Below the pieces are notes generated by a model. It was not told the DNA's origin. It worked only from the letters and a program-made list of their open reading frames with translations, and did no database searches. Source: Caldifarciminota bacterium (GTDB lineage: Bacteria; Hydrothermota; Tepidihabitantia; SM23-42). From it: DNA of 64,000 nt. The stretch spans positions 75,619 to 139,618 of the forward strand of contig JALVOT010000008.1 of NCBI GenBank assembly GCA_027026255.1. Direction: 5' to 3'. A program made the position numbers and the translations under genes. This document shows, in pieces, positions 1-12,176 of this stretch. Each line of letters begins with the position of its first letter. Position 1 is the stretch's first letter.

Positions 1-27
1 ATGTCTGTTAACATTCGGATGCTATGC

Positions 28-55
28 TTGACAAAGCCCAGGGTTTTATTATAAT
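28..55 (+). promoter_or_regulatory. Sigma-70-type promoter of the CsoR/selenoprotein operon
   Basis: TTGACA at 28-33 and TATAAT at 50-55 are separated by 16 bp. It precedes the repressor gene at 91 and is the only promoter I see for that gene and the two genes after it. Confidence 0.8.
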
Positions 56-62
56 ATAGTAT

Positions 63-77
63 TAGGGAGTAACCCTA
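63..77. promoter_or_regulatory. Operator-like palindrome TAGGG-N5-CCCTA
   Basis: A perfect 5-bp inverted repeat (63-67 and 73-77) with a 5-base spacer lies between the -10 box and the SD of the CsoR-family gene. CsoR-family operators are G/C-tract inverted repeats placed over their own promoters, so autoregulation is a reasonable inference. Confidence 0.45.
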
Positions 78-90
78 TAAGGAGGCTGCT

Positions 91-387
91 ATGAGAAAAA
101 GAAAAGGATGCCTGTCTAAGGTGTGCAAGTGCACATTATCGACGCGTCTTAACAAAATTATTGGTCAGATTCAGGGTATTGAAAGAATGATAAACGAAGA
201 GCGATATTGTGTTGATATTTTGCAACAGATATCATCAGTCCATGAAGCGCTGCGAGGTCTGGGTAAGGAGATAATGCGTAATTATCTTGAACAATGCGCA
301 ACCAGGGCGATTCTGTCAAAGAAGAAAGAACATCAACAAATGATCTACAAAGAAATTATGGATATAATCTATAAATATGCCAGGTAA
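91..387 (+). CDS. CsoR/RcnR/CstR-family (DUF156) transcriptional repressor
   Basis: A 98-residue all-helical repressor of the CsoR family, which senses metals or reactive sulfur species through conserved thiols and releases its operator. The core LNKIIGQIQGIERMI and RYCVDILQQIS is diagnostic. Cys40 and Cys69 match the two CsoR ligand cysteines (29 residues apart), but the residue four before the second Cys is Tyr65 rather than the Cu(I)-binding His. Lack of that His is typical of persulfide-sensing CstR-like proteins. Three extra cysteines (7, 12, 14) sit in the N-terminal tail. An SD (AAGGAGG) precedes the ATG. The gene is followed 10 bases later by two candidate selenoprotein genes, suggesting redox or metal control of them. 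The inducer cannot be assigned from sequence. Confidence 0.88.
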   Translation: MRKRKGCLSKVCKCTLSTRLNKIIGQIQGIERMINEERYCVDILQQISSVHEALRGLGKEIMRNYLEQCATRAILSKKKEHQQMIYKEIMDIIYKYAR

Positions 388-397
388 AGGAGGTGTT

Positions 398-1444
398 ATG
401 CAAAAAATATTCAAGCTTTTATCAAGTCTTCTGCTTGCTGTCTTATTGGTTAATCTGTCTGCCGCGGCTCAAAGGGTGGTGGTAGGCGAGATGGTATATG
501 GTGAAAGTTGAGGTCAGTGTCGCATAGCCAGTGGTACACTGGACCAAATCGCCGCGGATTATCCTGGAAGGATAGCACCGGTGGAGATGCATGTGTATGA
601 AGATTATCCACTCTATCTTGCTGAGGCAATTGATAGATGGCATTCTTATCCTCCGTCCTATTATGGATACTATGTAATCCCCTGGCTCTGGTATGACGGC
701 AATCCACATCTCGGAAAGACCTTTTCCGTATGGGAGGACTCTATTGTCAGTCGTATGAATCAGCCTTCTGTGGTGACAATAACATTGAATGGATATTATT
801 CATCGTCAGGGAATGGAATGATATCTGCTCAATTCCGTAATGATACTACTGTGACAATAAATGGCCGGGCTCTTTTTGTAATAACCGAAGATAGTATTTA
901 CTATGTGGGACCAAATAAGGACAGCATACATAATCATGTGGCTCGTGATTTCTTGCCCAATCCCCTCGGGGTAGGCATATCAATACCTCCGGGAGATTCA
1001 GCAACAATAGATATGCCTTTTTCCATTCAACCGCGCTGGAATGTCAATAATTGCAATATGCTGGTATGGTTGCAGGATACTATATTAACCTCAGATTCTG
1101 TTAAGAATGTCTACCAGGGTAGTTTTATTAAAATATCAAGCCTTGATATTAAAGAAAATAATCCGGATATGGTTCGTAATCAAATGATATCTGTAATGCC
1201 AAATCCCTGTTCTGAAGAGTTGAAGTTCAAATTTCATCTACCTGCGGGAGCTGCTTACTCAATTACCCTCTTTGATGTTCTGGGCAGGATGATACGGAAT
1301 CTGCATGGTAGGTCTCAGGGAATTTCAGAAACCATTGTGTGGCATTGCAAAAACCAGAATGGTTTTATGGTTCACCCTGGAATCTATTTTTATAAAGCTG
1401 ACATCCAGGGACAGGTTATAACCGGGAAAGTTATTATCCGGTAG
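398..1444 (+). CDS. Secreted Omp28-like thioredoxin-fold selenoprotein with C-terminal sorting domain (TGA = Sec at codon 38)
   Basis: One 348-residue frame runs from ATG 398 (SD AAAGGAGG) through a single in-frame TGA at 509-511 to TAG at 1442-1444. Codons 1-25 encode a signal peptide ending near SAAAQ. The TGA lies in GES-U-GQC, giving a UxxC motif where thioredoxin-fold proteins of the Omp28 type carry CxxC. After it come the Omp28-like features SGTLDQIAADYPG and WLWYDGNPH, an all-beta middle region, and from about residue 265 a FlgD-like/Por sorting domain (MPNPCSEELKFKFHLP, LFDVLGRMIRNL, GIYFYKAD). A hairpin that meets the bacterial SECIS consensus starts 16 bases after the TGA. Likely role: extracytoplasmic thiol/selenol oxidoreductase exposed at the surface. 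Substrate unknown. A nonsense mutation is the alternative, but the paralog has the same TGA. Confidence 0.82.
509..511 (+). other. In-frame TGA proposed to encode selenocysteine
   Basis: TGA in frame with both the upstream signal peptide and the 310-codon downstream frame. It replaces the N-terminal Cys of a CxxC motif (U-G-Q-C). The surrounding TTGAGG is shared with the second gene. Confidence 0.8.
528..542 (+). promoter_or_regulatory. SECIS-like hairpin of first selenoprotein gene
   Basis: CCAGTG (528-533) pairs perfectly with CACTGG (537-542) around the 3-base loop GTA. The loop starts 22 bases after the TGA. Bacterial SECIS elements usually have the apical loop 16-37 bases after UGA, a 4-16 bp upper stem and a G in the first two loop positions, all met here. 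A longer alternative fold pairs GGTCAGTGT just after the TGA with ACACTGGACC. Confidence 0.68.
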
Positions 1445-1458
1445 AGAAAGGAGGTTTT

Positions 1459-2505
1459 ATGTATGAAAAGAAGATAATCAACTGGTTGATAATCGGGCTG
1501 AATATTTTTAATATATGCTTTGCTGCGCAAAGAACGGTTATCTGCGAAACAATCTACTCTGAAACTTGAGGATGCTGTAATGCAACCAGTGGTACACTGG
1601 ACCAAATCGCCGCGGATTACCCTGGAATGGTTGCCGTAATTGAAATGCACATTAACAGTACTCAACCCCTCTACTGTGAAGAGGCTGATCAACATAAAAA
1701 TTATTATTATCCGCCAGCCGGCGGTGTTTATCCTAATGGCTGGCTCTGGTATGACGGCAATCCGCATATCGGAAAGGACCCTTCTGTATGGGAGGACTCT
1801 ATTGTCAGTCGTATGAATCAGCCTTCTGTGGTGACCATCACAATGTGGGGTTATTATTCACACCGCTCAGGGAGCGGCACCATCTATGCACAATTCCGAA
1901 ATGATTCTACCGATACAATCGATGGTCGTGTGTTTCTTGTGCTTACTGAAGATAGTATATATTATCCTGCCACAAACTATGACAGCACCCATAATCATGT
2001 AGCGAGGGATTATCTGCCGGATGAAAATGGTGTAAAGGTATCAATCCCGGCGGGTGATTCTATAACTGTTAATCAACATTTTTCAATCCCTGCAGACTGG
2101 AATGACGAACAATGTCGAATAATAGCCTGGATTCAAAATGATATACCACAATCTGATTCAACAAAAGAAATCTGGCAAGGTGGAATGAAATCAATAAATG
2201 AACTGAGTATTTGCGAAAAGAAGATAGTTAAATCTTCCGATATGACTATAACAACAATACCTGAACCCTGTCGAAATTTCACGGTTTTCGTTTTTAACCT
2301 GCCGGCTGGGCTCGAATATCAGATAGATATTTTCGATATAATGGGTCGTCGGATTAGAACATTAAAGGGAGAATCGATTAAAAGTGTTGAATCGGTTGAA
2401 TGGGATTGCCGTGATGATGGTGGGTTCAAGGTTTGTAAGGGTGTTTATCTTTATTGTTTTAAGAGCAGTCTGATAAAGACTTCCGGAAAAATAACAGTGA
2501 GATAA
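1459..2505 (+). CDS. Second secreted Omp28-like selenoprotein with sorting domain (TGA = Sec at codon 37)
   Basis: A 348-residue paralog of the preceding gene, starting at ATG 1459 behind the SD AAAGGAGG, 14 bases after the first gene's stop. A signal peptide (ending near CFAAQ) leads to SET-U-GCC at TGA 1567-1569, again UxxC and with an extra adjacent Cys. SGTLDQIAADYPG, WLWYDGNPH and SIVSRMNQPSVVTIT are near-identical to the first copy, including at DNA level. The C-terminus (IPEPCRNFTVFVFNLP, IFDIMGRRIRTL, GVYLYCF) is a Por/FlgD-like sorting domain. Divergence elsewhere (FRNDTTVTI against FRNDSTDTI; C-terminal half) shows that both copies are under protein-level selection, not young pseudogenes. 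Function inferred as a surface redox protein. Confidence 0.82.
1567..1569 (+). other. In-frame TGA proposed to encode selenocysteine
   Basis: It occupies the same protein position as the TGA of the upstream paralog, in U-G-C-C. TGA terminates many other genes in the window, so general UGA reassignment is not the explanation. Confidence 0.8.
1586..1600 (+). promoter_or_regulatory. SECIS-like hairpin of second selenoprotein gene
   Basis: The stem CCAGTG/CACTGG with loop GTA is identical to the hairpin at 528-542, and its loop again begins 22 bases after the TGA. The 16 bases between TGA and hairpin differ between the genes while the hairpin is invariant. Confidence 0.68.
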
Positions 2506-2814
2506 TTTAATGAAAGGAGATGATATAATGAGCGAATAATTTTTTAAAGATAGTGCGGGGGTTCCAAATGCAAAATGCCGACCGCACTGGTTATTATTGA
2601 CTATACAAAGTGTGAGCCCTGTGTAAGGGCGTATACCCGGGCGGTATATAAAGAGACCTTCAAGGTTTCAAGGAATTACAGCAAGGAATGCAGTTTAAGG
2701 AAGAGCTTGGCGTTTTTTGGCGGGTTAAATCTTTGCATTAAATACTGTGTCGACCAGGTTGTTTTCGCAGATTTAGAGGATAGGTTAGAAATTACCCTCC
2801 GACCCAGATTTTTG
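2506..2814 (+). other. Structured intergenic region with a three-codon minigene
   Basis: GAAAGGAGATGATATA precedes ATG AGC GAA TAA (2528-2539), an SD with only three codons. Four short hairpins follow in a row: 2552-2558 with 2582-2588, 2616-2620 with 2626-2630, 2632-2637 with 2643-2648, and 2656-2660 with 2662-2666. The open frame continuing into the aldolase shows no domain and lies upstream of the aldolase promoter, so I treat it as non-coding. It could hold a structured RNA or the remains of a deleted gene. Confidence 0.35.
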
Positions 2815-2842
2815 TTGACATCGCTTCAGGATTTGATAAAAT
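2815..2842 (+). promoter_or_regulatory. Promoter giving a leaderless aldolase mRNA
   Basis: TTGACA (2815-2820), 16 bp, TAAAAT (2837-2842), then five bases and ATG at 2848. This fixes the start of the aldolase. Confidence 0.75.
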
Positions 2843-2847
2843 ATAAA

Positions 2848-3768
2848 ATGCTTGTCAGTCTGAACGAAATTCTACCCCGGGCACGGAAAAAAGGTTATGG
2901 GGTTGGTGCCTTTAATACATCAAATTTGGAGATCACTCAGGCGATTGTTCGGGCCGGGGTAGAACTTAATTCACCGATAATTGTTGAGACCAGTGAAAAG
3001 GCGATTAAATATGCCGGAATAGAAAATATTGCTGAGATGATTATTACGATAGCAAAAAAAGTAAAGGTTCCGGTTGTCCTGCACCTTGACCATGGCCGTT
3101 CATTTGATATTGTTCGGGCCTGTATAAAAAATCATTACACCTCAGTGATGATTGATGGTTCACACCTTCCATTCAAGGAGAATCTCAAACTTACCCGGAG
3201 GGTGGTAAGGTTTGCTCATAAATATCAGGTATCGGTCGAGGCTGAGCTGGGCAGACTGGCCGGTATTGAAGATGATATTTCAGTAAAGAGAGACGAGGCG
3301 ATTTATACTGAGCCGGACCAGGCAAAGAGATTTTTTGAAGAATCAGAATGTGATGCCCTGGCGATTGCAATTGGCACTTCACATGGCGCCTATAAATTTA
3401 AGGGAAGACCAAAATTAAGGATTGATATCCTTAAAGAGATTGCCAATCTGGTAAAGATACCGCTGGTTCTGCATGGTGCATCAGGTGTAAAGAGAAAGTG
3501 GATAAATCGGGTAAATCGGTTTGGAGGAAGGCTTGCCCATACCAGGGGGGTTCCGGACCGATTAATAAGAGAGGCAGTAAAAAATGGGATATCCAAGATC
3601 AATACCGATACCGATTTAAGGATTGCCTTTACTGCCGGACTCAGGGAATATCTTGTCAAACACCCGGAAAATTTTGACCCGAGAAAGAGTCTGAGTTATG
3701 CCCGGGAATTGATGGTCGGGGTGGTGAAACAGAGGATTGAAGTATTCGGTTCGGTAAATCAGGCATAA
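2848..3768 (+). CDS. fba: Class II fructose-bisphosphate aldolase
   Basis: Zinc-dependent aldolase cleaving fructose-1,6-bisphosphate to glyceraldehyde-3-phosphate and DHAP (glycolysis/gluconeogenesis, cytoplasm). The start at 2848 gives 306 residues beginning MLVSLNEILPRARKKGYGVG, the canonical class II N-terminus. The frame is open 91 codons further upstream, but that part has no homology features and would lie before the promoter. Motifs are VGAFNTSNLE, the zinc-site HLDHG, GTSHGAYKF, LHGASG and ISKINTDTDLR. An insertion of about 25 residues follows LHGASGV (KRKWINRVNRFGG and on), longer than in the compact class II enzymes. The gene is translationally linked to apbE by TAATG. Confidence 0.93.
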   Translation: MLVSLNEILPRARKKGYGVGAFNTSNLEITQAIVRAGVELNSPIIVETSEKAIKYAGIENIAEMIITIAKKVKVPVVLHLDHGRSFDIVRACIKNHYTSVMIDGSHLPFKENLKLTRRVVRFAHKYQVSVEAELGRLAGIEDDISVKRDEAIYTEPDQAKRFFEESECDALAIAIGTSHGAYKFKGRPKLRIDILKEIANLVKIPLVLHGASGVKRKWINRVNRFGGRLAHTRGVPDRLIREAVKNGISKINTDTDLRIAFTAGLREYLVKHPENFDPRKSLSYARELMVGVVKQRIEVFGSVNQA

Positions 3769-4721
3769 TGAAGCGGTTTATAATTATTATTTTATCGTTT
3801 ATGTTGTTGGTATCCTGCGCCCGGAAGAAAGAGTATCATTATACAAACTTTCTTTTCGGTGCACCCTGTGATATCAAATTCTATTTTATCGATGATGTCC
3901 GGGCAAAGGAGATTATTGATGTAATAGACCTGGAGCTGACCAGGCTCGATTCCCTTTTGAATTATTTTTCAGATAAAAGTCTGGTTTCTGAACTTAATAG
4001 AAATTTGAGGGTTAAGGCGCCAGGTGATATTATTTATCTGTTTTCCCTGTGTGATTCTGTATCAAGGCTGACCAATGGGCTGTTTGACATCTCGATCGCA
4101 CCTTTAGTTGAGGGCTGGGGTTTTTATGAGGGTAAGAAAAGGGTTCCGGATTCCTTTGAAATAGAGAGGCTCAAGGGCCTTGTTAATTTTCGAAAGATTC
4201 AGATTAAAGATGATTCTATTATTATCGAAAAGGGGATGAAAATAGACCTTGCTGGTATTGCCCAGGGTTATGCAGCGGACAGGGTGGGGATGATTTTACG
4301 GCAGCGCAGTGTGCGTTCCGCAATCATTAATATCGGTGGCGAAATACTCGGGATTGGTGAATCTCCCCGGGGCAGACCCTGGCGTGTGGGAATAAAGAAT
4401 CCCCGGGGTAAAGGGATAATCGAAACCATTGAATTAAAAGATTCTGCGGTTTCAACCTCCGGTGATTATGAAAAGTTTTTTATTATTGACCATAAAAGAT
4501 ACTGCCATATTATTAATCCGAAGACCGGCTTTCCTGCTCAGGATTTTGCCTCGGTTACAATATGTGCAAAATCTGCAGGTTTTGCCGATGCCCTGGCAAC
4601 TGCGGTTTCAATTATGGGCAGGGAGCGGGCAATAAAGTTTCTTGATTCTTTAAAGATTCATAGTATAATATATTACTATGATGAGAAAGACCAGAAATTA
4701 CATCGTCTTGAGGTTAAGTGA
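3768..4721 (+). CDS. apbE: FAD:protein FMN transferase (ApbE), lipoprotein
   Basis: Transfers FMN from FAD to Thr/Ser of target flavoproteins such as Rnf/Nqr subunits, outside the cytoplasmic membrane. The 317-residue protein begins with a lipoprotein signal (LLVSC lipobox, Cys17) and carries ApbE landmarks: GAPCDIKFY, NGLFDISIAPL, KIDLAGIAQGYAADR, INIGGEI, AVSTSGDYE and HIINPKTGFPA. The ATG overlaps the aldolase stop by one base. No flavinylation target is seen nearby. Confidence 0.93.
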   Translation: MKRFIIIILSFMLLVSCARKKEYHYTNFLFGAPCDIKFYFIDDVRAKEIIDVIDLELTRLDSLLNYFSDKSLVSELNRNLRVKAPGDIIYLFSLCDSVSRLTNGLFDISIAPLVEGWGFYEGKKRVPDSFEIERLKGLVNFRKIQIKDDSIIIEKGMKIDLAGIAQGYAADRVGMILRQRSVRSAIINIGGEILGIGESPRGRPWRVGIKNPRGKGIIETIELKDSAVSTSGDYEKFFIIDHKRYCHIINPKTGFPAQDFASVTICAKSAGFADALATAVSIMGRERAIKFLDSLKIHSIIYYYDEKDQKLHRLEVK

Positions 4722-5701
4722 TGGTTGAGGCGCGATATTACGAAAAAAAGAATGGTTATATTGAATGTCAGCTCTGCCCTCACTATTGTAAGATTCAACC
4801 CGGAAAACTTGGTGCGTGTCGGGCGAGGAAGAATGAATCGGATAAGTTGTGGGCAATTAATTATGGCGAGACAACCTCGGTTGCCCTGGACCCTATGGAG
4901 AAGAAACCACTCTACCATTTTTTTCCCGGGTCACAGATATTATCGATCGCCTGTAATAGCTGTAATATGCACTGTCCATTCTGCCAGAACTGGGAGATTT
5001 CCCAGACCGCGGTGAAGACTGAGCAGCTTTCACCCGAGCTTCTCCTTAAGATTTTTCATGACCATTCATCCATAGGCATTGCCTATACATATACCGAGCC
5101 CTTGATGTGGTTTGAGTATCTGCTCGATGTCGGAGAATTGATTCATAATGAGGGCGGTAAGAATGTGTTAGTAACAAACGGCCTGCTCAATGAGAAACCC
5201 CTTTTGGAACTCATCCCTCTGATTGATGCGATGAACATCGACCTCAAGACAATGGACCCGGAAACTTATAAGAATATCCTGTTTGGTGATCTGGATACAG
5301 TGAAGAGGACAATTGAAACAGCCCATCAGAAATGCCACATTGAAATTACAAATCTTCTGGTTACCGGATTGAATGATAAGAAACGGGATATCGACCGGTT
5401 AATCGATTATGTAGCATCAATAGACAAAGATATACCTTTACATTTTTCCCGTTATTATCCAAACTATAAATATGACAAGCCACCAACATCAATAAAAAGA
5501 CTTGAATATGCCTATGAAAGGGCAAAGGAGAAACTAAATTATGTCTATCTGGGGAATATCCCGGCGGCTGACGGGGCAAATACATATTGTCCTGAGTGCG
5601 GCGTCCTGCTGATTGAAAGGATGTATTTTCGAACTCTGATAAAGGGACTGGATGGCACGCGTTGTGCCAGTTGTGGTAAAGAGATTAATATCGTGCTTTA
5701 G
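4721..5701 (+). CDS. amrS: AmrS-type radical SAM enzyme (AmmeMemoRadiSam family)
   Basis: Radical SAM protein of the AmmeMemoRadiSam/PFL-activating-like group; the family's exact reaction is poorly defined. CxxxCxxC at residues 81-88 (CNMHCPFC) binds the [4Fe-4S] cluster. The N-terminal CQLCPHYC module and the C-terminal zinc-ribbon-like pairs CPEC and CASC are typical. YTYTEPLMWFEY and MNIDLK follow the family pattern. ATG 4721 overlaps the apbE stop (TGATG); a GTG at 4718 is the alternative start. Partners AmmeMemo A and B are not in the window. Confidence 0.9.
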   Translation: MVEARYYEKKNGYIECQLCPHYCKIQPGKLGACRARKNESDKLWAINYGETTSVALDPMEKKPLYHFFPGSQILSIACNSCNMHCPFCQNWEISQTAVKTEQLSPELLLKIFHDHSSIGIAYTYTEPLMWFEYLLDVGELIHNEGGKNVLVTNGLLNEKPLLELIPLIDAMNIDLKTMDPETYKNILFGDLDTVKRTIETAHQKCHIEITNLLVTGLNDKKRDIDRLIDYVASIDKDIPLHFSRYYPNYKYDKPPTSIKRLEYAYERAKEKLNYVYLGNIPAADGANTYCPECGVLLIERMYFRTLIKGLDGTRCASCGKEINIVL

Positions 5702-5712
5702 AAGGAGGTGAT

Positions 5713-5973
5713 ATGGCGAGAAGGCGAGCAAGAACAGTTATTTTTGGTATTATTCTGGGGGGGGTTATTGGTTCGGCATTATCGTTTTTTCTGGCCGGGC
5801 TCTTTCCCAGAGGTCCGGTGAAAAATCTGCTCTTCAGCGCCCTGAAGATCGGTTTTTCTACGGTGCGGGTGAACCTTGGATTTTTTGCATTTTCCCTGGG
5901 CCTCAGTATTAATATTACACTCATCACGATTATCTTTATATTTTTGGTAATGTATCTATTACATAAGATATAA
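5713..5973 (+). CDS. DUF4321 small membrane protein
   Basis: 86 residues with two hydrophobic segments (about 9-30 and 52-82) and the PVKNLLF...LGFFAFSLGLSINI pattern of DUF4321, a family of unknown function common next to housekeeping genes in Firmicutes-like and related phyla. A strong SD (GAAGGAGGTG) precedes the start. Confidence 0.75.
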   Translation: MARRRARTVIFGIILGGVIGSALSFFLAGLFPRGPVKNLLFSALKIGFSTVRVNLGFFAFSLGLSINITLITIIFIFLVMYLLHKI

Positions 5974-5994
5974 GATATATAAAGGGGTCTGATT

Positions 5995-7404
5995 ATGTTT
6001 TTACTCGGTGAGATTGTAAAAAAGAAGAAAACGGTTGAGGTTAAGAATCCCTATAATAACCAGGTCATTGAAAATGTCGGTCTGAGTGATGAGGATGATA
6101 TTGAAAGGGCGGTGGCGATTGCCCGGGAAGGTTTTCAGATTCTGAGGGATATGCCGGCTGGAGAACGGGCGAAAATTCTGGAAAGAACCGGAGAGATTAT
6201 AAGTGATAAAAGGGAAGATTTCGCCCGCACTATTGCCTTAGAATCCGGTAAGACCATTAATGAAGCAAGGGGCGAGGTTGCCCGGGCGATAAATACGATA
6301 AAACTCTCAGCCATTGCGGCACTTGAATTGCATGGTGAGACAGTTCGGTTTGATCTTGATGGGCAGTCAAAAAAGATGGGATTTTATATCCGGGTTCCCT
6401 TGGGTGTGGTTCTGGCCATCACGCCCTTTAATTTTCCCTTGAATCTTTCCTGCCATAAGATTGGGCCGGGTTTAGCCGGAGGCAATGCGATAATCCATAA
6501 ACCAGCGACCAAGACCCCGCTTTCGGCTTTGAAACTTGCTCAGGCGTTGGTTGAAGCAGGTCTGCCCAGGCAGGGGATTTCCGTGCTGGTCGGCTCCGGG
6601 TCAAAGATTGGCCTTGGCTTAGTGCGTCATCCTGCAATTAAAAAAATAAGTTTTACCGGTTCCTTAGAAGTGGGAAGAATTATTACAGAAAATTGCGGAA
6701 TGAAGAGGGTGACGATGGAGCTCGGTTCTAATTCGGCGCTTGTAGTATTTAAGGACGCCCCATTGGAATCTGTTGCCAGAAAGGTGAGAAAGGGTGGTTA
6801 TACACTTGCCGGGCAGGTCTGTATTTCAATCCAGCGGGTATATGTAGAGGAGGATGTGGCAGATGAATTTTTGAGGCTGCTTTCAATGGAGGTGAATCAG
6901 ATAAGATATGGAAATCAGTTAGATGAAAAGACCGAGATGGGCCCGATGATTGATGAATCTGCAATAAAGAAGGCTGAAGAGTTCTGCAGCGATGCGGTAA
7001 AAAGGGGCGGCATATTGATACTCGGAGGAAGGCGTAAAGGCAGCATCTTTGTTCCGACCATCATTTTGAATGTTCCTGAACAGGCATTGGTGATTCAAGA
7101 AGAGGCATTTGCTCCGATTGTCGTTGTAAATAAATTTAAGACAATGAAAGAAGTGATTGATAAGGTCAACAATACAAAGTACGGACTTCAGGCCGGAGTC
7201 TTTACCCGGGATATTACAAAGGGGTTGGAGTGTGCACGCCGGATTGAGGCGGGAGGTGTTCTGATAAATGAGTTTCCTACTTTTCGGGTTGATAATATGC
7301 CCTATGGTGGGACCAAAGGAAGCGGGATTGGACGGGAAGGCCCGAAGTTTGCAATAAAAGAGATGACTGAAGAGAAATTGATTGTTTTTGACCAGCTCGA
7401 ATGA
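5995..7404 (+). CDS. NAD(P)-dependent aldehyde dehydrogenase
   Basis: 469-residue ALDH-superfamily enzyme oxidising an aldehyde to the acid. The nucleotide-binding and catalytic elements are complete: PFNFPLNL, HKPATKTPLSAL, SFTGSLEVG, general-base Glu242 in MELGSNSA, nucleophile Cys276 in AGQVCIS, EEAFAPIV and the C-terminal GVLINEFPTFRVDNMPYGG. The sequence resembles the GapN/lactaldehyde/succinate-semialdehyde group. The substrate cannot be fixed; with the aldolase nearby, non-phosphorylating glyceraldehyde-3-phosphate oxidation is possible but only inferred. Confidence 0.9.
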   Translation: MFLLGEIVKKKKTVEVKNPYNNQVIENVGLSDEDDIERAVAIAREGFQILRDMPAGERAKILERTGEIISDKREDFARTIALESGKTINEARGEVARAINTIKLSAIAALELHGETVRFDLDGQSKKMGFYIRVPLGVVLAITPFNFPLNLSCHKIGPGLAGGNAIIHKPATKTPLSALKLAQALVEAGLPRQGISVLVGSGSKIGLGLVRHPAIKKISFTGSLEVGRIITENCGMKRVTMELGSNSALVVFKDAPLESVARKVRKGGYTLAGQVCISIQRVYVEEDVADEFLRLLSMEVNQIRYGNQLDEKTEMGPMIDESAIKKAEEFCSDAVKRGGILILGGRRKGSIFVPTIILNVPEQALVIQEEAFAPIVVVNKFKTMKEVIDKVNNTKYGLQAGVFTRDITKGLECARRIEAGGVLINEFPTFRVDNMPYGGTKGSGIGREGPKFAIKEMTEEKLIVFDQLE

Positions 7405-7448
7405 GGATATTGAAAATTATCTGATAGAGGTAAAAATAGAGGTAAAAA

Positions 7449-8195
7449 ATGCGCATTAAAATAAAGCTTACAGCCCAATCTGCTGATGGACTCAGACTTC
7501 CCCTCCATTACAACTATCTTGTTCAGGGTTTTATCTATAAGAATCTTAATCCACATCTTGCGCAATTTCTTCATAATCAGGGCTATCAATTTGGAAAAAG
7601 GCGATTTCGGTTTTTCACCTTTTCCCGGATTCTCGGAAGGTTTAAGATAGACCGGGAAAAGATAATCTATCCGGGCGACTGCACCCTCTGGATTGCCTCA
7701 CCGATTAATAAAATTCTGGAATCCTTTGCCAGTTCCCTGGCACATAAAGGGTATGTAGAACTTGGTAATAATATGTGCCAGGTTAAGAGTATTGAAGTGC
7801 CATTTAGAAAAAAATATAAGACCGGGTTAATGATTCATACCTTATCACCGATAACCGTTTATTCCACCCTGTTTACCAAAAATAATAAGAAGAAAACTTA
7901 TTATTATTCCCCATTGGAACCTGATTTTTCTAAATTGATTTTAAAAAATTTGATAAAAAAATATCTTATCCTGCATCCGGAAAAGAAGGATGCATCTTTA
8001 TCGTTTTCAATTACACCAAACCGGGTATCCCGACAAAATGAGCATATAATCTATTACAAAAATACCGTAATCAAGGCCTGGTCCGGGGTTTATACCATAA
8101 AGGGGTCTGCACCACTGTTGGGACTTGCCTTTGATACCGGGCTTGGTTCGAAAAATAGTCAGGGTTTTGGAATGATTGAGGAATATAGCCGATGA
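7449..8195 (+). CDS. cas6: CRISPR-associated endoribonuclease Cas6 (orphan)
   Basis: 248-residue Cas6 of the RAMP superfamily, which cuts pre-crRNA within repeats. Evidence: the N-terminal ferredoxin-like strand MRIKIKLTAQSADGLRLPLHYN, LVQGFIYKNL, RFRFFTFSRI and the C-terminal glycine-rich loop LLGLAFDTGLGSKNSQGFG followed by MIE. The region between the two RAMP folds (about 155-190) is Lys-rich. No repeat array and no other cas gene is found anywhere in the window, so it must act in trans or be a relic. The frame is intact. Confidence 0.88.
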   Translation: MRIKIKLTAQSADGLRLPLHYNYLVQGFIYKNLNPHLAQFLHNQGYQFGKRRFRFFTFSRILGRFKIDREKIIYPGDCTLWIASPINKILESFASSLAHKGYVELGNNMCQVKSIEVPFRKKYKTGLMIHTLSPITVYSTLFTKNNKKKTYYYSPLEPDFSKLILKNLIKKYLILHPEKKDASLSFSITPNRVSRQNEHIIYYKNTVIKAWSGVYTIKGSAPLLGLAFDTGLGSKNSQGFGMIEEYSR

Positions 8196-8459
8196 ACTTT
8201 TATAATTAAGATGATAAAGAGATTGTCATTTCCATTTGAAATATATGGTTTAAAAAAGAAAAGGTTTACAGAGAAATTCAGAAGTTCATTTTGAAGAGTA
8301 TGACAGAGTTTACCTGCATAATGAGTATGATTGAGATGAAGACTTTTATTTTATAGTCAGGATTGAATCCTGTCAGTATGTAATTACCGTTTATAAATAA
8401 ATAATATATAAAACAGGAAAGCTGAAAATGGTGTTTAGAATTTAATATAAAAAGTAGAT

Positions 8460-10325
8460 TTACTCCGGTTCAAATTTGAATCCCTTTTTTCTAAACAGTT
8501 TTACACATACATCAACAATTTCAGCATCGTAGAGAAGCGCCTTATTCTTTTTTATTTCATCCATTGTCGCTTTAATCCCTTTTGCCGGACGATAGGGTCG
8601 ATGTGATGACATCGCCTCTACCACATCAGCAACTGCAAGGATTTTTGCCTCAAGCAGAATCTCTTTATCTTTTAGCCCCCGGGGATAACCACTGCCATCA
8701 AGCCGTTCATGGTGTTGAAGAACAATTTCTGCAATCGGTCCGGAAAATTTGATGTTCTTGAGGATTTCATAACCTACCTGACAGTGATTTTTTATGAGCT
8801 CAAATTCGGTTTCGCTCAAGACACTGGGTCGGCTCAGGATTTCAGCCGGGATATATATCTTTCCAATATCATGAATTAGTGCTGCACTATAAATGCAGTT
8901 AATCTGTTGCCGGGATAACTTCATCTCCTCAGCAATCGCCCGGGCAAGCCGGGCAACACGGGTTTGATGGCCAGCAGTATATGGGTCCCGGGTTTCTAAG
9001 ATTTTTGCCATTGCCTGAAGGGTATTTTCAATTGTGCGTTGAAGTTCATCCTGGGTATGTATCCAGTCTGTTATGTCACGCACTGCACCCATTGCTGCAT
9101 AATGACCCTGGTAGGTTATTCTGGTGACGGAAAATTCACAGAACCGCACATCGCCGTTTTTGGTAACAACCCGACTTATATATCGATTGGGCACAGCCTG
9201 GCCCTGCGCCCTTTTCATTCCGATCTCCTTTATCCTTTTTCTTTCATCCGGATGGATTAAATCCCAGATCTTCATCCGTAGTAGCTCTTCTTTTGTATAA
9301 CCGGTGATTTCACTTACTCGATTATTGATAAACAGGAATTTATCGCCGCGATAGATATAGATTGCATCGTGGCTCTGTTCAACCAGTATCCGGTATTTCT
9401 CTTCACTCTCCTTTAATGTTGCAGCAACCTTTGTTCGTTCTTTTTCAATCTTGAATTCATAAAGGGCGAAGGCAATATCACCGCAGATTTCATCAAGCAG
9501 ACTTATCTCTTCCTCAGTGAACGTCCGGGTGTGAACAATATAGAGATAGCCTGAAACCTCTCCGTGCGCAATAGGTCCGATTGCCAGGAAATGGTCATCA
9601 AATTTATATGAAACGACCTTTTGGAAATCAGACTTTTTTTCTTTCATAAATTTATCTATCTCATCACAATATTTTTTTTCACCGGCCTGATATTTTTTAC
9701 CATTATACAAGATGCAGATTGCTTTATAGTCTTTTATATTTAACAGAATATCACAAATCTGGTTTAGCAGATTAGATTCGTTGTATTCCTGAATAACCCG
9801 TTGATTTATTCTCCTGATTGCCTGGAATATTTCATTTAGATGTATAATATCGATTTCGTATCTTTTTAGTTGCGAGACATCACGAATAATGGTAAGAACC
9901 CCAACGATTGAATTATCCAGGGATTTAATTGGTGAGGCGGTCATTAAGACATTAATTTTTTTCTGGTCTTTTCTGATGTGCTCGGTTGCATATGAATCAA
10001 TTTCTTTACCGGTTTTTATCCGGGCGAAGAGGTGAGAAAATTGATTTTTATTTTCAGGAGGGATGAGCTTGGAAAATGGTTTGCCCAATATCTCTTGAGC
10101 GGTATACTGATAAATTTTTTCCGCCCCGGGATTCCATCGGATAATAATTCCATCCAGATTCTGTTCAATAATTGCATTTGGGGTAAAGCCCAGAATTTTA
10201 TTCAGTTTTGTTCTTATCTGTTCAATCTCTCTATTTTTTGTAATCATCCTTTCGAGTTCATTTATACGCCGCTGCAGCTTAGAAATCTGTTTTTTTAGCG
10301 CCTCTTCTTTTGATTTATTTTTCAT
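8460..10325 (-). CDS. PAS-GAF-PAS-HD-GYP sensory cyclic-di-GMP phosphodiesterase
   Basis: 621 residues: coiled coil (1-45), PAS (about 45-155, NAIIEQNLDGIIIRWNPGAEKIY), GAF-like domain (about 165-300), second PAS with PAC (about 305-425, HDAIYIY, FINNRVSEITGYTKEELL), and HD-GYP (about 430-615). The HD-GYP motifs TAGHQTRVA, HDIGKIYIP, HCQVGYEIL and HHERLDGSGYPRGL are intact, predicting hydrolysis of c-di-GMP. No transmembrane helix, so a cytoplasmic sensor. Its own promoter lies upstream. Confidence 0.93.
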   Translation of the reverse strand: MKNKSKEEALKKQISKLQRRINELERMITKNREIEQIRTKLNKILGFTPNAIIEQNLDGIIIRWNPGAEKIYQYTAQEILGKPFSKLIPPENKNQFSHLFARIKTGKEIDSYATEHIRKDQKKINVLMTASPIKSLDNSIVGVLTIIRDVSQLKRYEIDIIHLNEIFQAIRRINQRVIQEYNESNLLNQICDILLNIKDYKAICILYNGKKYQAGEKKYCDEIDKFMKEKKSDFQKVVSYKFDDHFLAIGPIAHGEVSGYLYIVHTRTFTEEEISLLDEICGDIAFALYEFKIEKERTKVAATLKESEEKYRILVEQSHDAIYIYRGDKFLFINNRVSEITGYTKEELLRMKIWDLIHPDERKRIKEIGMKRAQGQAVPNRYISRVVTKNGDVRFCEFSVTRITYQGHYAAMGAVRDITDWIHTQDELQRTIENTLQAMAKILETRDPYTAGHQTRVARLARAIAEEMKLSRQQINCIYSAALIHDIGKIYIPAEILSRPSVLSETEFELIKNHCQVGYEILKNIKFSGPIAEIVLQHHERLDGSGYPRGLKDKEILLEAKILAVADVVEAMSSHRPYRPAKGIKATMDEIKKNKALLYDAEIVDVCVKLFRKKGFKFEPE

Positions 10326-10344
10326 AATTACACCTATTATATCA

Positions 10345-10372
10345 ATTATAATAAGATTTCTGGGGCTGTCAA
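10345..10372 (-). promoter_or_regulatory. Promoter of the HD-GYP gene
   Basis: On the minus strand TTGACA (10372-10367), 16 bp, TATAAT (10350-10345), with a 19-base leader carrying AGGTG before the ATG. Confidence 0.75.
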
Positions 10373-10470
10373 GAAAAACCTGGAGCGGTTTAAGACATTG
10401 TAGTTACCTCAAGAAGAACTCCCGGGGTGAAAAAAACAAGAATAAAGACAGGAAATTAGTTTTCTGGTAG

Positions 10471-10498
10471 TTGACAGTAAATGAATTGTAGATATAAT
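10471..10498 (+). promoter_or_regulatory. Promoter of tRNA-Lys
   Basis: TTGACA (10471-10476), 16 bp, TATAAT (10493-10498), ending 7 bases before the mature tRNA. Confidence 0.8.
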
Positions 10499-10505
10499 AA
10501 GCTTG

Positions 10506-10578
10506 GGGTCGTTAGCTCAGTTGGCAGAGCATCGGATTTTTAATCCGGTGGCCGCAGGTTCGAATCCTGCACGACCCA
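10506..10578 (+). tRNA. tRNA-Lys (anticodon TTT)
   Basis: Cloverleaf: acceptor GGGTCGT/ACGACCC, D arm GCTCAGTTGGCAGAGC, anticodon stem TCGGA/TCCGG around loop TTTTTAA (anticodon TTT), T arm GCAGGTTCGAATCCTGC, discriminator A. CCA is not encoded. Confidence 0.97.
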
Positions 10579-10634
10579 GTTATTTATAATTTGCAATTCG
10601 GCTTAATTTTGTGCAGGTTATGTCAGGAGTGCTG

Positions 10635-10662
10635 TTGACACATAAGAATTTGTAAATATAAT
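10635..10662 (+). promoter_or_regulatory. Promoter of the thioredoxin-CcdA fusion gene
   Basis: TTGACA (10635-10640), 16 bp, TATAAT (10657-10662). The transcript would carry an untranslated leader of about 75 bases before ATG 10746. The leader holds GGAACCA...TGGGGCGCAAAG, which resembles one half of a c-di-GMP-I (GEMM) aptamer. Confidence 0.7.
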
Positions 10663-10745
10663 AAGTTTGAGGATGGAACCACTCCTTGGGGCGCAAAGTT
10701 TACCGATGCATTTCATAATAATGATTGTGTTGATAAATATCTGAT

Positions 10746-12176
10746 ATGATTTTAAATATTCTGTTCTTTATATTATTCCAACAACCGGATATAACCCTCT
10801 ACTTTTTCTATTCCCCGGATTGCGGCCATTGTAAGGATGTGATGCTTGAGGACCTTCCCGGTATAGAATCGAAATTTAATGTTAACATAAAAAAATTCAA
10901 TCTTGATGATATTAAAAATTTGCAGCTTCTGGAGAATATCGAAAAGAGATTAAAAAAGAGTGGCGAAGACCTGCCGGTCATAGTTATCGGTGATTCAGTA
11001 TTCTATGGGCCCGAAGAGATTCACAAGAAACTTGAACCGACCCTGAGGACGATTAAAAAAGCCCGGTGCACCATTTCCCGGGATACCACGGTTATTGATA
11101 CTATAAAAAAGCACTTTAATCCCATCAATCTCTACTACTTTTTTAAACCCGGATGCAGGCAGTGCCGGCGCACTGAGATATTACTGAAGGATTTAGAAAA
11201 AGAGTATAAATATTTATCAATCCATCGTTACGACATCCTGGAGTCCAAAAATAAGGTTTTTTATGAGGGTCTTGCCCGGCATCTAAGGATGCCTGAAGAT
11301 TTACGCCTGCTTGTCCCGGCAATCTTTATCGGCGATGACTATTTAATAAAGAAAGATATCAATACGGGAAATCTTATCAATCTATTTAAGAAATATCAAA
11401 ATGGAAGTCCGGCACTGGATAGTCTGGACTTATCAAATGCCGGGCAGGGTATAATAAAAAGATTTTCTCGGTTCTCATTTTTGGGCATTATGCTGGCCGG
11501 GCTTATTGATGGCGTCAATCCCTGTGCCTTTGCAACAATCATATTTTTCATAAGTTATCTTTTATTTGTCGGCCGGCGGCAAAAGGATATCCTTTTGATG
11601 GCGATTTCATTTATCAGCGCTGTATTTTGCAGTTATCTGCTTATTGGATTTGGGGTATATAATCTGTTAATATTCCTCACTGAATTTGAATTTATCGGTA
11701 AAATTATCTATCTTATTTTTGGTGTCGGTGCCATTGTTCTGGGAATTTTAAGTCTTTATGATTATATACTTGCCCGGAGAAAATCCTATAATAATATGTT
11801 ATTGCAGCTTCCCCGGATTCTAAAACAGGCGATTCATAAGAAGATTAAAGAAAAGAGTGCGGTGGGTGGTATAATTGTCGGTTCTTTGATTGCCGGTTTT
11901 TTTATTTCCGTACTTGAATTTGCCTGTACCGGCCAGATATATCTTCCCACAATAACATTTATGATTTCCCGGCCGGGATTGAAATTTCGGCCTATCCTTG
12001 CCTTGATTGTATATAACATTATGTTCATCGTGCCGTTAATTTTGATTGCAATTCTGGCATTGATATTTTCCACAGAAAATATCGCCCGTTCCTTATCAGA
12101 TAGGATTGCCCTGATAAAGTTGCTTACCGCCGTATTATTCTTTGGCCTCGGGATATTACTTCTGCTCTCAATATGA
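10746..12176 (+). CDS. Fusion of two thioredoxin-like domains with a CcdA/DsbD-type membrane electron carrier
   Basis: 476 residues. Domain 1 (about 15-105) has CGHC (Cys26/Cys29); domain 2 (about 120-225) has CRQC (Cys137/Cys140). A six-helix membrane part (about 250-476) carries the CcdA/DsbD redox cysteines in VNPCAFAT (Cys260) and EFACTGQIYLP (Cys394). CcdA/DsbD proteins pass cytosolic thioredoxin electrons across the membrane to extracytoplasmic dithiol proteins. Here two thioredoxin domains are N-terminal in the same chain. The secreted Sec proteins at 398-2505 are plausible clients (inference). The downstream gene overlaps by 4 bases. Confidence 0.9.
   Translation: MILNILFFILFQQPDITLYFFYSPDCGHCKDVMLEDLPGIESKFNVNIKKFNLDDIKNLQLLENIEKRLKKSGEDLPVIVIGDSVFYGPEEIHKKLEPTLRTIKKARCTISRDTTVIDTIKKHFNPINLYYFFKPGCRQCRRTEILLKDLEKEYKYLSIHRYDILESKNKVFYEGLARHLRMPEDLRLLVPAIFIGDDYLIKKDINTGNLINLFKKYQNGSPALDSLDLSNAGQGIIKRFSRFSFLGIMLAGLIDGVNPCAFATIIFFISYLLFVGRRQKDILLMAISFISAVFCSYLLIGFGVYNLLIFLTEFEFIGKIIYLIFGVGAIVLGILSLYDYILARRKSYNNMLLQLPRILKQAIHKKIKEKSAVGGIIVGSLIAGFFISVLEFACTGQIYLPTITFMISRPGLKFRPILALIVYNIMFIVPLILIAILALIFSTENIARSLSDRIALIKLLTAVLFFGLGILLLLSI

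Follow-up and report, generated by a model that had tools for sequence, protein, structure and literature searches.

Two adjacent genes in the stretch of DNA analyzed here (64 kb, hereafter the window; G000:C8:75619-139618) very probably encode selenoproteins, likely displayed at the cell surface: the UGA in each gene is best read as selenocysteine (Sec, U), its decoding would be directed by a hairpin, and the products are likely exported through the type IX secretion system (T9SS) and probably act as thiol/disulfide oxidoreductases. As we picture it, the genome's own SelA, SelB, SelD and tRNA-Sec would insert Sec at UGA under the direction of a hairpin that lies within the coding sequence, 17-31 nt past the UGA. 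A signal peptide would then export the product, and T9SS would read the C-terminal domain and bring the protein to the cell surface. The UxxC motif would open the first helix of a thioredoxin-like fold, with an Omp28 beta domain beside it, and would most likely give thiol/disulfide oxidoreductase activity, that of a reductase or an isomerase, comparable to the CxxC of the Porphyromonas surface protein HBP35.

Two tandem genes with in-frame TGA codons

An earlier note, made from the letters of this DNA, had described two adjacent paralogous frames with one TGA each at the same protein position; this description was confirmed, and the inference of selenoproteins drawn from it is supported. Genes 1 and 2 (Table 1) are 50% identical across 344 aa, each frame has a single TGA, and both TGAs fall in the same alignment column. 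Both genes are preceded by a clear Shine-Dalgarno sequence and begin with a hydrophobic signal peptide, past which approximately 311 stop-free codons lead to a Por_Secre_tail/FlgD-like tail. Standard annotation would reduce them to truncated ORFs (581-1444 and 1627-2505). Near-identical DNA blocks common to the two genes were also observed, namely the hairpin region CCAGTGGTACACTGGACCAAATCGCCGCGGATTA and a stretch encoding VWEDSIVSRMNQPSVVT, which suggests local gene conversion between them.

Table 1. Features in and around the two predicted selenoprotein genes (positions are those of the window).
Feature	Position	Strand	Description
CsoR/FrmR-type metal- or sulfur-sensing repressor gene	91-387		Ends 10 nt before gene 1; PF02583, 83 bits
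Predicted selenoprotein gene 1	398..1444	+	348 aa with TGA read as Sec; predicted signal peptide, UGQC thioredoxin-like region, Omp28 domain, T9SS-type C-terminal sorting domain
Predicted signal peptide, gene 1	398..469	+	MQKIFKLLSSLLLAVLLVNLSAAA; read from sequence, cleavage point approximate
In-frame TGA, gene 1	509..511	+	Codon 38, read as Sec38, the first residue of UGQC
Putative SECIS apical hairpin, gene 1	528..542	+	CCAGUG-GUA-CACUGG, +17..+31 from UGA, loop begins with G
Predicted T9SS type A sorting domain, gene 1	1193..1441	+	TIGR04183, 35.1 bits (cut-off 23), residues 266-348
Predicted selenoprotein gene 2	1459..2505	+	348 aa with TGA read as Sec; predicted signal peptide, UGCC thioredoxin-like region, Omp28 domain, FlgD/T9SS-like sorting tail
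Predicted signal peptide, gene 2	1459..1524	+	MYEKKIINWLIIGLNIFNICFA; read from sequence, cleavage point approximate
In-frame TGA, gene 2	1567..1569	+	Codon 37, read as Sec37, the first residue of UGCC
Putative SECIS apical hairpin, gene 2	1586..1600	+	CCAGUG-GUA-CACUGG
Predicted T9SS-like sorting domain, gene 2 (weaker)	2275..2496	+	TIGR04183, 18.7 bits (under cut-off 23), residues 273-346
Class II fructose-bisphosphate aldolase	2575-3768		N-terminal extension of ~90 residues with CxxC and several other cysteines; Pfam match from residue 94

The whole window was scanned for frames in which a TGA is followed by 110 or more open codons. A TGA within a conserved motif was found only in genes 1 and 2; the other six TGA-interrupted frames looked like antisense overlaps or junctions of neighboring genes. 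In addition, 42 ORFs in the window are 240 aa or longer, and TGA serves as the normal stop of 16 of them. These two observations refute the possibility that TGA has been reassigned to an amino acid throughout the genome (as in genetic codes of type 4 or 25). No support was found for such a reassignment, which is further opposed by the UCA-anticodon tRNA of the genome, called tRNA-Sec by ARAGORN and scoring strongly against RF01852, and we see practically no chance that it is correct.

Sec and Cys at the TGA column

The source genome has a second tandem UxxC pair on contig C13, in which the corresponding site reads UGGC in one gene and UNPC in the other. The last two thirds of these two paralogs (L044:246-2661) are nearly identical and their active-site surroundings differ, suggesting either gene conversion or a recent duplication in which the active-site region has diversified; the pair adjoins transposase-like ORFs.

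When a profile of four paralog domains was searched against 147 genomes of the same phylum, homologs were found in 90 of them, and the named relatives belonged to candidate division WOR-3 / Candidatus Stahlbacteria. The earlier note had proposed to check homologs for Cys at the TGA column. Among the 126 distinct homologous sequences that cover this site, 105 have Sec, 21 have Cys and none has any other residue. We then placed the sequences in a tree (119 rows, TGA column masked), where the window genes fell within a clade of 76 sequences (SH-aLRT 99), all with Sec and no Cys member in this set. Sec and Cys alternate outside this clade, and the whole tree has 8 Sec/Cys switches. The spacer of UxxC also varies (GS, PT, SS, GQ, GC and NP), and the N-terminus is hydrophobic in 70 of the 76 clade members. 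The frame is conserved both before and after the TGA, and dN/dS of close pairs downstream of it was 0.04-0.34, indicating purifying selection. Comparative evidence of this kind shows Sec/Cys exchange in the family and, together with the features described below, very strongly supports the predicted Sec decoding of both genes.

The truncated ORFs that standard annotation would give could be taken to mean that the TGAs are nonsense mutations or sequencing errors and that the genes are decaying. However, many independent assemblies have the same TGA column, in a total of 105 distinct sequences, with Cys as the sole alternative; selection after the TGA is strong and purifying, the hairpin is conserved and the Sec machinery is complete. 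We consider a pseudogene or sequencing error refuted by the U/C-only column and a downstream dN/dS well below 1, and its probability is extremely small.

Hairpin downstream of the TGA

The five outer pairs of the putative SECIS hairpin are formed in 76, 73, 76, 71 and 75 of the 76 clade sequences, respectively. Co-variation was seen as an exchange of C-G to U-A at +21/+27 and, in some cases, as C-G/A-U at +18/+30. We compared the folding energy of region +12..+36 with that of synonymous-codon shuffles keeping both protein and codon usage, in groups set by profile score. The Sec clade of the window genes had a mean of -9.81 kcal/mol versus -3.93±0.25 kcal/mol for the shuffles. A second Sec group had -9.76 versus -4.70±0.49 kcal/mol and a different loop, mostly AGGU. 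Cys homologs gave -4.12 versus -4.08 kcal/mol in the same region, showing no hairpin signal. The comparative evidence shows a hairpin that accompanies Sec, and this hairpin probably directs decoding.

According to the published model of bacterial SECIS elements, the loop has 3-9 nt with a G among its first two positions, the stem has 4-16 bp and the spacing is 16-37 nt (Fig. 2A of PMC13188914), with an energy limit of -7.5 kcal/mol (PMC13188914). All 76 clade members have this geometry. The window hairpins are similar to the model in that they have a 3-nt loop starting with G, a 6-bp stem and 22 nt from UGA to loop, but they differ from it in energy: the isolated 15-nt hairpins have -6.4 kcal/mol, which is weaker than the limit. 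Within the clade, 46 of 76 members have an isolated hairpin of -7.5 kcal/mol or lower, versus 0-6 of 76 at shifted positions. When the whole region +1..+47 was folded, the energies were -14.6 kcal/mol for gene 1 and -10.5 kcal/mol for gene 2, the structure of globally lowest energy for gene 2 being one other than the hairpin.

Selenocysteine machinery

A look-up of selA, selB, selD and tRNA-Sec(UCA), also suggested in the earlier note, found all four in the source genome (2.1 Mb, 99% complete). The selA gene (548.7 bits) lies side by side with selB and tRNA-Sec (anticodon TCA) on contig C15. Two selB genes scored above the cut-off, the second copy being on contig C17, and each of two selD genes has an internal TGA (GUAGK and GUASK). 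Hairpins after both selD TGAs match the bacterial SECIS model and provide internal positive controls.

The selenium cluster on contig C17 (L021; G000:C17:70000-89900) contains the second selB, a cysteine-desulfurase-like gene, a YedE-like transporter and the two Sec-type selD genes. Between the latter lie two Omp28 forms, a long one with a T9SS tail and a lipoprotein-like one; each has Cys in place of Sec (CTYC). In one relative, Sec-Omp28 genes flank selB (G075:C1:1644128-1651599), yet no selA match was found in this single-contig assembly (90% complete).

Across the phylum, selA was present in 50 of 54 genomes with Sec forms and in 0 of 20 Cys-only genomes (Fisher p 1.8e-14, a value that overstates the strength of the association because related genomes are not independent samples). 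The same pattern was observed inside genus g23, in which Sec goes with selA in G098 and G099, and Cys with a lack of selA in G100. Both selB and tRNA-Sec were absent from all four Cys-only genomes tested.

UCA allo-tRNAs occur in some bacteria, and it is conceivable that an odd tRNA with this anticodon reads UGA through as an ordinary residue, such as Cys or Ser, instead of Sec; the four Sec-type genomes without a selA match might be viewed in this way. However, selB or tRNA-Sec is present in each of the four. Their missing selA is likely due to incomplete assemblies, completeness being only 53-82% in three of them. Besides, the SECIS-like hairpin, the Sec in SelD and the selA association all favor the Sec pathway, and we consider readthrough with an ordinary residue very improbable.

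Fold and possible redox function

Omp28 (PF11551, gathering cut-off 34.9 bits) was detected at residues 87-240 of the gene 1 product (E 6.8e-12, 46 bits) and at residues 107-228 of the gene 2 product (E 2.4e-14, 54 bits). The earlier note had also claimed a thioredoxin-like N-terminal region. Matches to the Pfam Thioredoxin family were weak (E 0.099 and 0.055), and the AlphaFold model was modest (mean pLDDT 65.8, pTM 0.51), with pLDDT of 33-63 in much of the N-terminal region, where the active site lies. In favor of the claim, the model has a strand at 28-34, the motif at 38-41, a helix at 41-54 and a strand at 59-65, which is a thioredoxin-like order, but pLDDT in this region is mostly 47-63. 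Also, the best PDB match of the model over its full length was HBP35 (5y1a; Foldseek, 349 columns, E 5.3e-12, TM 0.49/0.53), a protein to which a sequence search gave no match. The model is suggestive, short of proof, of a thioredoxin fold with UxxC at the start of the first helix; a thioredoxin-like function has moderate support.

Sec in UxxC motifs with a varying spacer is typical of redox sites, and a TlpA-like thioredoxin adjoins some homologs (see below). We infer a thiol-disulfide redox role and, with it, the existence of an electron donor and substrates for these proteins. These features also bear on a different possibility, that the main role of the selenoproteins is binding of a surface ligand (hemin or metal) and not thiol-disulfide exchange. 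HBP35 of Porphyromonas gingivalis binds hemin through its C-terminal part (PMC2907840), and a CsoR-type repressor gene lies immediately upstream of gene 1. However, the repressor was a neighbor only in the source genome among the flanks examined, and the motif and the adjoining thioredoxin both point to redox chemistry. A primary role in ligand binding is unlikely, and we retain the oxidoreductase as the preferred reading.

Sorting tail and export

T9SS genes were evident in the source genome, which encodes SprA (329 bits, cut-off 200) and full-length PorU (483 bits, cut-off 420). Many further tails of the type seen in genes 1 and 2 occur elsewhere in this genome. Among 46 complete members, on the other side, a crude motif picked out a clear tail pattern at the C-terminus in 33, not in all. 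The presence of SprA and PorU supports the export to the cell surface that the earlier note had proposed. Surface sorting of the two products has moderate support, and we infer that they are displayed at the surface.

The tail of gene 2 is under the TIGR04183 cut-off, NCBIfam calls Omp28 proteins elsewhere lipoproteins, and in relatives the family includes a lipoprotein form, which has UGFC. All this would be compatible with redox selenoproteins that are kept in the periplasm, or anchored as Omp28 outer-membrane proteins, with no T9SS export. On the other hand, the gene 1 tail is over the cut-off, and SprA, full-length PorU and many tails of the same type are encoded in the genome. We give retention inside the cell envelope a low, if appreciable, probability and favor T9SS export.

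In the open-access literature searched, there was no direct precedent for a selenoprotein as T9SS cargo or for WOR-3 selenoproteins, and the combination of selenoprotein and type IX secretion led to one unrelated paper only. A selenoprotein as T9SS cargo seems to be unreported in this literature.

Neighboring genes and other Omp28-like forms

The CsoR/FrmR-type gene is possibly in the same operon as gene 1. It was rejected as a conserved partner because the flanks examined, many of them short, had it in the source genome only, and it is regarded as a local neighbor. An Rfam scan of window positions 1-12000 found only a tRNA, and a search for plasmid DNA gave no match.

A third type of Omp28-like selenoprotein, with a lipoprotein-type signal and UGFC or UAFC, was observed in three relatives (L075:3280-4053, L076:6021-6794 and L080:9176-9949). 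In these loci, Sec genes are followed by the lipoprotein form and then by a TlpA/AhpC-TSA-like thioredoxin; a DUF6029 gene is present further along in two of the three (L075 and L076). The arrangement of lipoprotein form and TlpA-like thioredoxin, with or without DUF6029, fits an envelope redox module.

Implications

Sec is costly and oxygen-sensitive, yet it is used in several apparently surface paralogs, which suggests that the uncultured hosts depend on fast extracellular thiol chemistry. We lean slightly toward a broader view, in which WOR-3/Stahlbacteria have widespread and often multi-copy all-Sec T9SS surface thioredoxins that, with their lipoprotein and long-form relatives, would make up an extracellular selenium-based thiol redox layer. 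If true, such a layer would represent an undescribed use of Sec beyond the outer membrane. The predicted T9SS-sorted subfamily is an addition to the selenoprotein catalog, and standard reading truncates genes of this kind across much of a phylum. In addition, the Sec/Cys pairs and SECIS elements offer a large test set for the question of why one clade has retained Sec when its sister groups exchange it with Cys.

Comparison with known systems

HBP35 has thioredoxin activity, which is lost when both Cys are changed, and its C-terminal domain serves transport to the cell surface (PMC2907840). The window proteins resemble it in a thioredoxin-type motif near the N-terminus and a C-terminal domain that would serve surface transport, and possibly in the overall fold, as the full-length match suggests. 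They differ in that identity is 12% and that HBP35 has Cys, not Sec, and binds hemin. With regard to T9SS type A cargo (TIGR04183), the likeness is in the gene 1 tail, which is above the cut-off, and in the PorU and SprA encoded in the genome. The Pfam Omp28 family (PF11551) describes less of these proteins, as its match spans only the region after UxxC and is silent on both Sec and the sorting tail.

The earlier note had not recognized the family as described, and this needs to be revised. An Omp28-related UxxC selenoprotein is already known: NF045500 (Omp28_seleno) corresponds to GOS_C, a Trx-like, Omp28-related protein with UxxC whose function is unknown (Zhang and Gladyshev 2008, PMC2398784; Table 1 of PMC13188914). 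Genes 1 and 2 share with it the relation to Omp28, a single UxxC Sec site with Cys homologs and perhaps a Trx-like fold. Moreover, the match of NF045500 to the post-TGA part of a C13 paralog begins at the Cys of UxxC, aligned to profile position 54. The part of the claim that stands is that the window proteins are far under the NF045500 cut-off, scoring 36.9 and 43.5 bits versus 200 bits. None of the 147 genomes of the phylum reached this cut-off (best score 97.8), and strict membership was rejected because it was missed by a wide margin in all of them. The match also ends at approximately profile position 275 of 377, leaving the C-terminal T9SS tail uncovered. A search of the literature for Omp28 selenoproteins gave no direct precedent for these proteins. 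Because of the NF045500 scores of genes 1 and 2 and the lack of any genome of the phylum at 200 bits, we call the window proteins a new, putatively T9SS-sorted, all-Sec subfamily of the known Omp28-related kind, set apart from NF045500 by profile scores; its marks, as judged from sequence, are the predicted T9SS tail and the exclusive use of Sec in a 76-member clade.
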